Source: an uncultured Chloroflexota bacterium
Lineage (GTDB): Bacteria > Chloroflexota > Dehalococcoidia > UBA3495
NCBI GenBank assembly: GCA_913031095.1
Contig: CAJWGH010000043.1
Coordinates: forward strand, 1 to 7,782
Reading direction: 5' to 3'
DNA: 7,782 nt
The notes below the pieces were generated by a model that had not been told where the DNA came from, did no database searches, and saw only the letters and a program-made list of their open reading frames with translations. The number at the start of each line of letters is the position of its first letter. Position 1 is the stretch's first letter. Below, in pieces: positions 5,131 through 7,782 of this stretch. The position numbers were made by a program, and so were the translations under genes.

Positions 5131-5751
5131 CTAGCGCATTGGTGAAAATGAAGAGGGCACCATTATCTTGTTCTCCATGCTGACCAACAATTTCCCTGTG
5201 CCGGGCGGCCAGTGGGGACTTTCTAAGGCTTCCGCCCGGATCTGGTCGCGCTCTTGCATGTCTTTATAGGGCCAGATATGGACCCATTTGTTCAGCCCGT
5301 CAAGTTCGGTATACATAGCAGCGGCCATTGGAGAATATTTTTCACGATGAGGCACAGAGGCCCCCCAGCGCTTTAGTATTTCTGGTAATGTACCGGTTTT
5401 AAGCGTGTAGGTACGCATTTCATAGATGTTTCCCAATTTCTGGCCTCCGCCCATCGGCCTCATAAATGGTGCGGGTACGAAAATCTCTGACGCCATGCTC
5501 ACAAATATATCCGGGTCATTGGGGGGCGGCCAATGTGGATCGTTGCTGGCTTCGGCCCGAATACGAACACGTTCTTCGGGTGAATCGTAGGGCCAGACGT
5601 GAATGACTTGGTTTAGCGGTCCCACCTCAGTGTGCCAGAACGCGGCCAGCTTCGAATATTTTTCTCGATGAGGAAGAGAGCCAGCAAAGTTCTCTTCGAA
5701 CTCGGGCACCGACTCCGGCGTTAATACATAGGTACGGACTTCGTAAATCAT
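5131..5751 (-). CDS. NIPSNAP-family protein with two tandem NIPSNAP domains, 206 aa
   Basis: Two complete NIPSNAP (ferredoxin-like alpha+beta) domains are fused: about residues 2-95 and 109-202. Landmarks recur at a constant offset of 107: IYEVRTYVL / IYEMRTYTL, SLPHREKYS / SVPHREKYS, HVWPY / HIWPY, ERVRIRAEA / ERDQIRAEA and PHWPP / PHWPP. I count 39 identities in 75 aligned positions without gaps. Stand-alone bacterial NIPSNAP proteins are about 100 residues and resemble dimeric barrel folds, so this looks like a covalent pseudo-dimer. Biochemical function is unknown in the family; no signal peptide is visible, so it is probably cytoplasmic. The start is ATG at 5751, with AAGGAG 4 nt upstream; the frame is open to ATG 5859, but that N-terminus lacks family similarity and precedes the ribosome site. 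It lies 143 bp downstream of the Rieske-type gene on the same strand. Confidence 0.9.
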   Translation of the reverse strand: MIYEVRTYVLTPESVPEFEENFAGSLPHREKYSKLAAFWHTEVGPLNQVIHVWPYDSPEERVRIRAEASNDPHWPPPNDPDIFVSMASEIFVPAPFMRPMGGGQKLGNIYEMRTYTLKTGTLPEILKRWGASVPHREKYSPMAAAMYTELDGLNKWVHIWPYKDMQERDQIRAEALESPHWPPGTGKLLVSMENKIMVPSSFSPMR

Positions 5752-5769
5752 TTGGCTCCTTGACAGGCA

Positions 5770-5823
5770 ATTCTCTATTTGAAGCTCGAACATGCCAATC
5801 GCTATGAATGTTCTATCGAACAT
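5770..5823 (-). promoter_or_regulatory. Possible internal promoter and GAACAT dyad upstream of NIPSNAP
   Basis: On the minus strand TTGGCA (5798-5793; 5 of 6) and GAGAAT (5775-5770; 4 of 6) are 17 bp apart, which would give a very short leader before the ATG at 5751. Just upstream, ATGTTC-4 nt-GAACAT (5808-5823) is a perfect 6-bp inverted repeat. A further CGAACAT lies at 5787-5793 inside the spacer/-35 region, a 30-bp direct repeat of the one at 5817-5823. This clustering suggests an operator, allowing NIPSNAP expression apart from the Rieske-type gene. Confidence 0.3.
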
Positions 5824-5894
5824 CAGCGGGGGGTTGGCACTGGGTAGCGGCGACCGCACAGGAAATCTTTGAGGAGCTTGTAAAGGGTGAGAGG

Positions 5895-7178
5895 TTAACC
5901 CATCAGGGGAGGATTTTTTAGATACTCCTTGGCAAGCCGTAGTCCGGTTTCCTTCAAAAGCAATTTGTCTTCTCCTGGGGTGCTCGCCTCCGGGAGTCGA
6001 ATTACTGTATCGTTGGCATATGTTGGTATGACGGGCACAGATTGTTTTAGCAGGCCGTCCGGTTCCCGTCCTTCACGGACTGCTCTAATCCCTCTCCGCA
6101 ATTGTTGCCGAAAAATAATCACCCCTCGGTCAGAAGTAGCCAGATGCTCTAAGCCGTGGACAGCGATGGGGCGTTGTGCGATCTGGGCATCGAAATCCCC
6201 AGGCTCCCGTTGGCGTTGTTCGTAGGTCCTATCGTCAGGCATCTGACCCGGCATCCCGACTCGGTTCGCCCACCAATGGGGAGTCACCTCTTGCTCATCG
6301 CTCACGTGCCGGAATTCCACTTGCAAAGTAGTACGGTCGTCTCTCGGCACGATCCATCGGCTCATCATTGGGCCATCGAATGGATGGATCTCTTTACCGT
6401 CCTCCCATACGGGGGACACCATCATCAAATTGGGCAAGACTGAATCTACCATCCGCAGCCACATGTTGTCTCCGACTCTCCGAGTGGCCACATAGGCTAA
6501 TCCCAAAGGAGTCTCGATGTAGTCTAGTTCGGGTACCACGCCGAATTCTTCCGTGAATTGGGCGCCGCTAACGATGGTATGGAGGAATGCCGTGTGTACC
6601 GGATCTTGAGCATTTTCTGCTATTTGAAGCCAGTTACAAGAATAGTCATACCTAGGGCCAGCCACGATGTGGTATCCGGGACGTACCCAGCTATCGAATA
6701 CTGGGAAAGGGGGCTTCTTGTCGGGTGGTCCCATGTATACAAACACAGCGCCGGCAGCTTCGTGAGTGGCGTATGCTCCATGGAATCGGCGGTCTTCTAG
6801 CGGTCTGTCAACAGGCTCTCCGGGTGTCTCAAGGATGGCGCCGTCCACGTCTATTAGCCAACCGTGACGGCAACGGATCCCTCGCTCCGAAACCGTGCCA
6901 AACTCCAGAGAGTGCATTCCATCGGGGCAGTTGGCTGCCACCGCGCCCATCCGCCCGCTGAAGTCTTGGAACACCACTAGATCTTCACCTAGGATACGTG
7001 TCGCCACCGGAACGTCTGTTAGTTCCTCCGTGTATATCACCGGATGCCAGAACCGGCGCAGATACTCCCCACCCGGAGTCCCAGGTCCTACGTGGGTTAG
7101 CTCCGTGTCTTCTTCGGGGATCTCTCGATGCGCGTAAGCGTTGTAGGTTTTGTTGAGAAAAGCTTTCCTAGATGTCAA
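5895..7178 (-). CDS. Rieske-type aromatic ring-hydroxylating oxygenase alpha subunit-like protein with an altered cluster motif, 427 aa
   Basis: Overall architecture is that of phthalate-dioxygenase-type oxygenase alpha subunits: an N-terminal Rieske domain (about 30-150) and a C-terminal catalytic domain. The family uses a [2Fe-2S] cluster to feed electrons to mononuclear Fe(II) for O2-dependent hydroxylation or demethylation of ring compounds. The mononuclear site is intact: NWLQIAENAQDPVHTAFLH (182-200) supplies bridging D192 and ligands H195 and H200; an acidic third ligand is probably in the C-terminal part (D328 or D330 are candidates, unverified). GLEHLATSDRGV (342-353) and RQQLRRGI (357-364) match the family C-terminus. 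The Rieske motif is abnormal: canonical C-x-H...C-x-x-H reads C84-P-D86...C103-R-H105, although RHGWLIDVDG follows normally. The start is TTG at 7178 with AGGAGC 7 nt upstream. No reductase or ferredoxin gene is in the window. NIPSNAP follows on the same strand. Confidence 0.9.
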   Translation of the reverse strand: MTSRKAFLNKTYNAYAHREIPEEDTELTHVGPGTPGGEYLRRFWHPVIYTEELTDVPVATRILGEDLVVFQDFSGRMGAVAANCPDGMHSLEFGTVSERGIRCRHGWLIDVDGAILETPGEPVDRPLEDRRFHGAYATHEAAGAVFVYMGPPDKKPPFPVFDSWVRPGYHIVAGPRYDYSCNWLQIAENAQDPVHTAFLHTIVSGAQFTEEFGVVPELDYIETPLGLAYVATRRVGDNMWLRMVDSVLPNLMMVSPVWEDGKEIHPFDGPMMSRWIVPRDDRTTLQVEFRHVSDEQEVTPHWWANRVGMPGQMPDDRTYEQRQREPGDFDAQIAQRPIAVHGLEHLATSDRGVIIFRQQLRRGIRAVREGREPDGLLKQSVPVIPTYANDTVIRLPEASTPGEDKLLLKETGLRLAKEYLKNPPLMG

Positions 7179-7261
7179 TTCAAAGCTCCTACTGGCACTT
7201 TTGTGAGATGCATTGGGAATCCTTCATCCAAGTTTACAAGTTTTTGGCTCAAATATGTTAA

Positions 7262-7298
7262 GCGACGATATTATAATCGGTGTCGCATACGGGGCTAT
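7262..7298 (-). promoter_or_regulatory. TATAAT box within an imperfect palindrome, candidate Rieske-gene promoter/operator
   Basis: ATTATAAT (7270-7277) gives a perfect -10 hexamer on the minus strand (7275-7270), about 85 nt before the Rieske-type start. The -35 region 17 bp away (ATAGCC, 7298-7293) is a poor match, so an activator may be needed. The box lies inside GCGAC (7262-7266) ... GTCGC (7282-7286), a 5-bp inverted repeat with an inner GAT/ATC dyad, which would suit binding of a dimeric regulator over the -10 box. Confidence 0.42.
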
Positions 7299-7471
7299 TT
7301 TAAGGTTGCCGCAGGGTCAGTTACCTTTGCCTCCGTGCGGTAGCGTCTTCAGCGGTTGTGATTGAGGTCTTCATAATCAGGGCAGACGTTGATGCTAAAC
7401 TCCCTCTAGATTAACCTCTCTGAGCGTTTTCAGAAACTACTTAAGGTGCTTTTTGCCCTCCGCCAAAGATG
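7299..7471. other. Gene-free stretch with no recognisable feature
   Basis: Between the Rieske-gene promoter area and the second repeat copy I see only short frames without ribosome sites and one weak stem, TCTGA (7419-7423) with TCAGA (7430-7434). There is no convincing promoter, RNA gene or coding sequence. A regulator gene for the Rieske-type operon is not present here. Confidence 0.4.
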
Positions 7472-7533
7472 AAAGAAGCCCCCTCAAATGAGGGGGCTTT
7501 TCTTGTTTCGGCGACACCCCCATCGGGAAGGCA
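7472..7533. repeat. Direct repeat, copy 2 (stem-loop plus conserved tail)
   Basis: Same orientation as copy 1 at 5055-5116, with 40 of 43 matches over 7478-7520, and similarity continuing to the AAGGCA at 7528-7533 with one gap. The conserved tail TTCTTGTTTCGGCGACACCCC is kept although no minus-strand gene ends next to it. A second small stem, CCCCC (7517-7521) with GGGGG (7536-7540), occupies the place of the second stem of copy 1. The two copies lie on either side of the Rieske-NIPSNAP pair. Confidence 0.8.
7474..7501. terminator. Stem-loop terminator in repeat copy 2
   Basis: The stem pairs 7476-7485 with 7490-7499 (core GCCCCCTC / GAGGGGGC) around an AAAT loop, extended by a G.U and an A-U pair. 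It is followed by TTTTCTTGTTT on the plus strand and by CTTCTTTC on the minus strand. No recognised gene ends here on either strand, so it may insulate the divergent genes, end a short unrecognised transcript, or be a relic of a lost gene. Confidence 0.65.
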
Positions 7534-7589
7534 TAGGGGGCGGGTACGTAGAGGGTATGGGCATCGGCAGCCGAAGCGTCAAGATATAC

Positions 7590-7625
7590 AGGGTCACCGC
7601 CAGCGTGAAAGGGTGGCCCTTTTTG
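7590..7625 (+). terminator. Second terminator-like hairpin upstream of the 7700 gene
   Basis: AGGGTCACC (7590-7598) pairs with GGTGGCCCT (7612-7620) through 9 bp with one U.G wobble. The loop is 13 nt, and a run of five T (7620-7624) with GTTG follows directly. This is the form of a plus-strand intrinsic terminator or attenuator. Its place about 75 bp before the next plus-strand start suggests it ends a short upstream transcript or acts in a leader. Confidence 0.5.
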
Positions 7626-7654
7626 TTGCCCTCCAGGAAGTAGCGATGTAGTAT
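7626..7654 (+). promoter_or_regulatory. Weak promoter candidate for the 7700 gene
   Basis: TTGCCC (7626-7631; 4 of 6) and TAGTAT (7649-7654; 4 of 6) are 17 bp apart, directly after the terminator-like hairpin. Transcription would start near 7661, with a leader of about 40 nt containing AAGGAG (7687-7692). The match is modest. Confidence 0.28.
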
Positions 7655-7699
7655 CCAAGAAACATTCATGTGATCTGCAGGATAGCAAGGAGAGTTGCC

Positions 7700-7782
7700 A
7701 TGGCCCAAGAACCTAACGTGATCGAACTGTACGAAGGTGCGGTGCAAAACATGCTGCCCATCCTAGGCGGCATCCAGGAGAA
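7700..7782 (+). CDS. N-terminal fragment of a possible DinB / maleylpyruvate-isomerase-like protein (runs off the window)
   Basis: Only 27 codons are visible. ATG at 7700 has an excellent AAGGAG 7 nt upstream, so the start is well supported. The peptide begins MAQEPNVIELYEGAV and continues QNMLPILGGIQE. A short acidic start followed by an amphipathic helix of the pattern L-Y-x-x-A-V-x-x-x-x-x-I-x-G-I resembles the first helix of the DinB-like four-helix-bundle proteins (TIGR03086 / mycothiol-dependent maleylpyruvate isomerase N-terminal type). Those carry a metal site of three His residues, all outside this fragment. The family call is a guess from one helix; the existence of a gene is much surer than its identity. 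Confidence 0.6.
   Translation, partial: MAQEPNVIELYEGAVQNMLPILGGIQE

Follow-up and report, generated by a model that had tools for sequence, protein, structure and literature searches.

The window analysed here is a stretch of 7,782 nucleotides from an uncultured Chloroflexota bacterium (Dehalococcoidia; UBA3495), and its subject is a minus-strand gene at positions 5895 to 7178 encoding P0001, a homologue of Rieske-oxygenase alpha subunits with altered ligands for the Rieske [2Fe-2S] cluster. The alteration is shared by a small clade that has lost constraint in the Rieske domain and kept it in the catalytic domain. The gene and its features are as follows.

5895..7178, minus strand: Rieske-oxygenase alpha-subunit homologue P0001, 427 amino acids from a TTG start, identified by Pfam and solved relatives
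7186..7190, minus strand: AGGAG, Shine-Dalgarno-like by consensus resemblance only, 7 bases before the TTG start
6735..7067, minus strand: Rieske domain, residues 38-148, with relaxed constraint according to fixed-tree branch lengths and departures at near-invariant positions
6912..6929, minus strand: first cluster loop, C84-P-D-G-M-H89 (C-P-H-R-G-T in the family), from translation and alignment
6858..6872, minus strand: second cluster loop, C103-R-H105-G-W107 (C-C-Y-H-G-W in the family), one residue deleted according to the alignment, as also in P0002
5898..6734, minus strand: catalytic (mononuclear iron) domain and C-terminus, residues 149-427, with a rate equal to that of the canonical sister
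6579..6608, minus strand: Q191, D192 (bridging carboxylate), and H195 and H200 (iron ligands), identified by conservation, with putative roles taken from the family
6129..6131, minus strand: D350, probable third iron ligand, identified by conservation, with its putative role taken by homology

P0001 matches the Pfam Rieske profile PF00355 at 34.8 bits (cut-off 20.3) and the LigXa_C profile PF19301 at 35.2 bits (cut-off 27), and its best solved relatives by sequence are the phthalate-type Rieske oxygenases 7fjl, 7fhr and 9ina. The AlphaFold2 models of P0001 (mean predicted local distance difference test score, pLDDT, of 78.0; predicted template modelling score of 0.82) and of its canonical sister P0003 (80.4 and 0.82) are alike in secondary structure, and Foldseek aligned the P0001 model with phthalate dioxygenase 7v28_B (E 3.5e-27, template modelling score 0.65, root-mean-square deviation 7.9). 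The domain profiles and the fold are thus those of a Rieske alpha subunit. With phthalate dioxygenase and LigXa-type alpha subunits (7fjl, 7v25, 7fhr), P0001 shares homology over its whole length, the fold, the mononuclear iron residues (H195, H200 and D350, a predicted 2-His-1-carboxylate site) and the bridging carboxylate D192, but it has C-x-D and C-x-H instead of C-x-H and C-x-x-H. Judging by its sequence, P0001 is a descendant of the Rieske-oxygenase family that has retained the catalytic features and does not carry the Rieske alpha-subunit ligand motif C-x-H ... C-x-x-H.

As a sequence-only reading of this DNA had described, translation of the minus strand gives C84-P-D86 and C103-R-H105-G-W, with the 19-residue spacing of the two cysteines kept and one residue absent before the second histidine. 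The codons concerned are TGC for C84 (6929-6927), GAT for D86 (6923-6921), TGC for C103 (6872-6870) and CAC for H105 (6866-6864); the interval 6862-6927 given for the motif falls two bases short of the full C84 codon and includes none of W107. That reading had also taken D192, H195 and H200 together as the mononuclear iron motif. H195 and H200 agree with this as iron ligands, whereas D192 is by homology the bridging carboxylate and not a ligand, and the facial triad of P0001 most likely consists of H195, H200 and D350.

Two protein searches, with the best 120 matches listed of each, gave a pool of 201 proteins including P0001, of which 200 cover the Rieske site (P0050 does not and was dropped from the motif count). 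C-x-H together with C-x-x-H is present in 196 of these 200, P0001 counted, in a pool made up of nearest or best-matching members and not of a random sample. The exceptions are P0001, P0002, P0004 and P0084; in P0084 the first Rieske cysteine is replaced by glycine and the remaining ligands are canonical. The canonical motif was also found in 116 of the 117 oxygenase-like open reading frames (ORFs) from 112 fetched loci, where the one exception (L080) seems to have been printed in a wrong frame, and in 89 of 90 distinct ORFs at 70 loci from ten oxygenase-rich genomes. Both locus samples again hold nearest or best-matching members, and the 70 loci are unevenly spread, with 40 from G225, G286 and G341. 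Motif loss as a general habit of oxygenase-rich relatives was not seen in these samples.

The ten genomes (G286, G341, G225, G183, G494, G500, G485, G506, G243 and G280) each have 39-64 Rieske-oxygenase matches (E <= 1e-15), which makes for a very large paralogue family. At L152 (G225:C9:382800-387600), a different paralogue has phenylalanine in place of the second Rieske cysteine (GLRFLYHGW) within an open frame of 440 residues, possibly a lone mutation or an error. Another genome holds an oxygenase relative of 61% identity with an in-frame TAG stop (L103, G510:C73:1494-2141), probably a broken copy.

P0001, P0002 and P0004 belong together. In a tree of 54 of the 188 full-length proteins (P0001-P0008 and others thinned at 82% identity), P0001 groups with P0002 and P0004 joins them, with a support of 100 for the clade in both the full tree and the catalytic-domain-only tree; canonical P0003 is the sister of this clade, supported at 100 and 99, respectively. 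P0002, the full-length representative of 353 member sequences, is 93% identical to P0001, while P0004 and P0003 are each 83% identical to it. The cluster loops of P0002 read CPHGRHSL...CRHGW, with the one-residue deletion before the second histidine as in P0001, and those of P0004 read CPVGGISL...CRSHGC, with the first histidine lost. The first histidine position is therefore occupied by D in P0001, H in P0002 and V in P0004, and H89, new in both P0001 and P0002, is isoleucine in P0004. Two changes are clade-wide: the arginine after the first ligand position is glycine in all three proteins, and the second cysteine of C-C-Y-H is arginine in all three (as aligned by eye; MAFFT placed the gap differently). 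A further relative, P0050, has 279 amino acids starting at the equivalent of M149, stands for 29 member sequences and differs from P0002 at one of 247 residues. It comprises the catalytic domain only and may reflect gene truncation, or else an artefact of gene calling or of a contig end.

This comparison, which covers cluster representatives only, finds D86 in the window sequence alone, as would be expected if the unusual motif were a sequencing or assembly artefact. We regard such an artefact as very improbable, given that P0002, at 93% identity, also has the deletion and shares several of the changes around it; because the deletion is shared, read or assembly error is rejected as its source. 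Of the two features that the sequence-only reading had asked to see conserved among close homologues, the deletion is accordingly found again and the aspartate is not. Normal motifs in close homologues had been proposed as the mark of a local mutation, and the sister P0003 does have them, but a clade has the change in common, which makes it more than a local mutation.

The loss of constraint is confined to the Rieske domain. Among positions conserved in at least 99% of canonical relatives (41 in the Rieske domain and 50 in the catalytic domain), P0001, P0002 and P0004 depart at 8, 6 and 13 Rieske positions compared with 0 in P0003, and at 1, 1 and 2 catalytic positions compared with 1 in P0003. 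On a fixed tree, with residues 149-395 used for the catalytic-domain rate tests, the Rieske/catalytic branch-length ratio is 5.2 within the clade versus 0.63 elsewhere, a roughly 8-fold difference, and the asymmetry shows on the clade's stem as well as on its internal and terminal branches. Counted from the divergence from P0003, the catalytic domain has accumulated 0.066, 0.070 and 0.078 substitutions per site in P0001, P0002 and P0004, respectively, versus 0.079 in P0003. The corresponding changes in the loops (residues 81-107) are 0.845, 0.680 and 1.137 versus 0.060, in residues 108-148 they are 0.443, 0.392 and 0.645 versus 0.000, in the scaffold strands (residues 38-80) 0.103, 0.209 and 0.192 versus 0.009, and in the Rieske domain minus the loops 0.233, 0.305 and 0.357 versus 0.002. 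The acceleration thus peaks at the cluster-binding loops and also affects the remainder of the Rieske domain, but the catalytic domain shows none of it.

Pairwise comparisons give a similar picture. P0001 and P0002 differ at 16 of 111 Rieske positions and 7 of 247 catalytic positions (Fisher p = 9.6e-5). Among 666 pairs with a catalytic divergence of 2-15% (P0084 and proteins shorter than 400 amino acids having been dropped), the Rieske/catalytic ratio has a median of 0.85 and a maximum of 2.41 in the 660 canonical pairs, and ranges from 1.98 to 5.09 in the six pairs with a clade member, four of which lie above every canonical pair; neither pairs nor branches are independent, and the counts of changes are small. 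As read from these protein comparisons, the Rieske site has been lost at the level of the clade and in this one domain, while the oxygenase is otherwise under constraint.

The many changes at sites that are near-invariant elsewhere, along with the short P0050, could also be the sign of an early pseudogene, that is, of a dispensable gene whose decay happened to strike the Rieske domain first. The TTG start of the gene does not count as a further sign, because database proteins are written with an initial M for any start codon and so hide the start codons of the relatives. We consider decay quite unlikely, since the rate of the catalytic domain does not exceed that in the canonical P0003 and the asymmetry recurs on every class of branch in the clade. 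Moreover, the frame is open in three lineages with in-frame indels only, and a full-length protein, P0002, stands for 353 sequences, although the absence of stops is biased because a protein database shows open frames only. The relative rates of the two domains disfavour a whole-gene pseudogene, and the sequence-only judgement that simple gene decay is unlikely is strengthened by them.

That judgement had left two readings, an altered ligation of the cluster or a lost cluster with another electron route, and the comparison favours the second. In the first, P0001 would hold a [2Fe-2S] cluster through C84, C103, H105 and either D86 or H89, with a shifted potential, in an ordinary homotrimer. C84, C103 and H105 are kept in both P0001 and P0002, where H89 is new; the acceleration is weaker in the scaffold strands than in the loops; and AlphaFold2 folds the Rieske part of P0001 confidently, with block-mean pLDDT values of 82-95 over residues 31-120. 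Yet the first ligand is D, H or V among three close relatives, H89 is replaced in P0004, and the deletion directly before the second histidine should shift that histidine out of register. The model itself loses confidence further on, with a block-mean pLDDT of 50 at residues 121-130 (under 50 at 124-129) compared with 83 in P0003. The variable first ligand, the isoleucine at position 89 in P0004 and the many violated positions together look like relaxed constraint on the Rieske domain and not like a refined new site, and we rate an altered ligation as unlikely. A [2Fe-2S] site of two cysteines, one histidine and one aspartate in P0001 alone would be a bolder alternative, and is possible.

At the catalytic iron site, D192, H195 and H200 are present in all 196 canonical relatives and in all three clade members, and D350 is aspartate in 99% of 191 relatives and again in all three. 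The only catalytic change at a position conserved to at least 95% that is common to the three clade members and not found in P0003 is M191Q, which adjoins D192 and may hint at a change at the electron-entry interface; canonical P0005 has leucine at this position. The models tell little about the iron site because pLDDT falls under 50 beside the iron ligands in both of them (residues 196-202 and 198-207).

Constraint on the catalytic domain without constraint on the Rieske domain would also be expected if the former were kept for another role, such as non-Rieske chemistry (peroxide-driven, for example), substrate binding, or a function of the iron site that involves no redox step. P0050 would fit as a catalytic domain on its own, but it may be a gene-calling artefact, and the bridging D192, whose role in the family is in Rieske electron transfer, is kept in all three clade members, albeit over a short time depth. 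We find another role doubtful.

The explanation that we favour, with somewhat better than even confidence, is that P0001 comes from a lineage of alpha subunits in which the Rieske [2Fe-2S] cluster is already gone or on its way out, while the catalytic domain stays constrained and receives its electrons in trans. A conserved catalytic half joined to an eroding relay site suggests that electrons come from elsewhere. Rieske oxygenases place a cluster and the iron it feeds on adjacent subunits: the electron arrives at the catalytic iron from the cluster next door by way of a bridging carboxylate. Turnover could therefore be possible for a subunit that lacks a cluster when a donor lies next to it, and one whose cluster is dead can still be a catalyst if another protein sets a cluster beside its iron. 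The donor might be a paralogue with a working Rieske site that joins P0001 in a mixed trimer, or else a separate reductase or ferredoxin that carries a Rieske cluster. We infer the absence of the cluster, the retention of catalysis and the existence and identity of such a partner from this pattern of constraint. A stronger version, which we put forward tentatively, is that this full-length lineage has abandoned its own cluster altogether and would serve as a catalytic partner only, either within a mixed oligomer or together with a cluster donor of foreign origin, at a stage before the Rieske domain is shed.

To our knowledge, few natural cases place the Rieske and catalytic sites on different proteins. 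One is the chlorophyllide a oxygenase (CAO) of Micromonas, in which the Rieske and catalytic roles are divided between two chains. This enzyme, reported to occur as two chains (PMC9615114), is a precedent for split roles, compared here by description and not by sequence; it differs in being a green-alga enzyme with both chains known, whereas P0001 is known as one chain. In the caffeine N7-demethylase NdmCDE, NdmC reportedly has no Rieske cluster and is complexed with NdmD, which bears an extra one (PMC4408171). NdmC thus resembles P0001 as an oxygenase catalytic subunit without its own Rieske cluster, the absence in P0001 being the predicted state; in P0001, however, the Rieske domain is still there, though eroded, and this comparison too is by description. 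No NdmD-like reductase or NdmE-like protein was found among the seven window proteins scanned. In CntA, electrons pass between subunits through a bridging carboxylate: cluster and iron lie 44 A apart inside one subunit but 12.2 A apart from one subunit to the next, and bridging-glutamate mutants are reported to be inactive (PMC7948474).

Several points weigh against supply in trans by a lineage that has lost its cluster. Pfam identified neither a reductase or ferredoxin nor another oxygenase among the same seven window proteins. Nor did any genome from the clade, or close to it, turn up among 393 genomes of the class (drawn from a larger group), 250 of the order and 50, 1 and 2 in three families; the best oxygenase matches in genomes have 63% identity (L093, and L022 as a partial match). 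Purifying selection on the catalytic domain is read from protein rates and one sister lineage, because no nucleotide relatives of the clade were found. Two of the six clade pairs, P0001 and P0002 versus P0003, do not exceed the highest canonical pair. Finally, with both cysteines and one histidine surviving in P0001 and P0002, and with the scaffold strands (residues 38-80) less accelerated than the loops, the protein may still hold a modified cluster. In viral contigs, P0001 as query gave no match, and alignment A2 gave three loci at 33-35%. Full-text word searches, with hits judged by title and the opening of the abstract and with most subscription journals outside their reach, found no paper on a full-length oxygenase lineage whose Rieske site is eroded.

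The surroundings of the gene are ordinary. The six other window proteins scanned have SDR, epimerase, SnoaL-like, PPOX-type, MFS and NIPSNAP domains, and the roughly 600 bases upstream of the oxygenase start (7191-7782) contain no ORFs except an overlapping pair of 83 and 87 amino acids. The downstream neighbour is as follows.

5131..5751, minus strand: NIPSNAP-family protein, 206 amino acids from an ATG at 5751, a neighbour of the oxygenase by position

The ORF listed for this protein (5131-5859) begins at a GTG at 5859, and its best 120 listed relatives have 203-206 amino acids, which fits the ATG at 5751. A conserved neighbourhood of NIPSNAP and oxygenase genes was not found, as not one of the 112 loci matched both at E 1e-20; in many of them the flank spans no more than about 1.5 kb. 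Among the matches listed, the named relatives of the NIPSNAP protein are from SAR202 and Dehalococcoidia (69% identical), and those of the oxygenase are from SAR202, Dehalococcoidia and also Entotheonellia, Tectomicrobia and Stellaceae. The host is probably a marine, SAR202-like member of the Chloroflexota. Ring-hydroxylating dioxygenases are described as expanded in SAR202, mostly in group VII (PMC6946804).

Rieske oxygenases transfer electrons between subunits, so the two sites can in principle occupy different proteins. The eroding clade and its canonical sister at 83% identity are a ready pair for asking whether and how catalysis is fed in trans. For the family as a whole, the label 'aromatic ring-hydroxylating dioxygenase alpha subunit' can conceal enzymes that might be unable to function by themselves.
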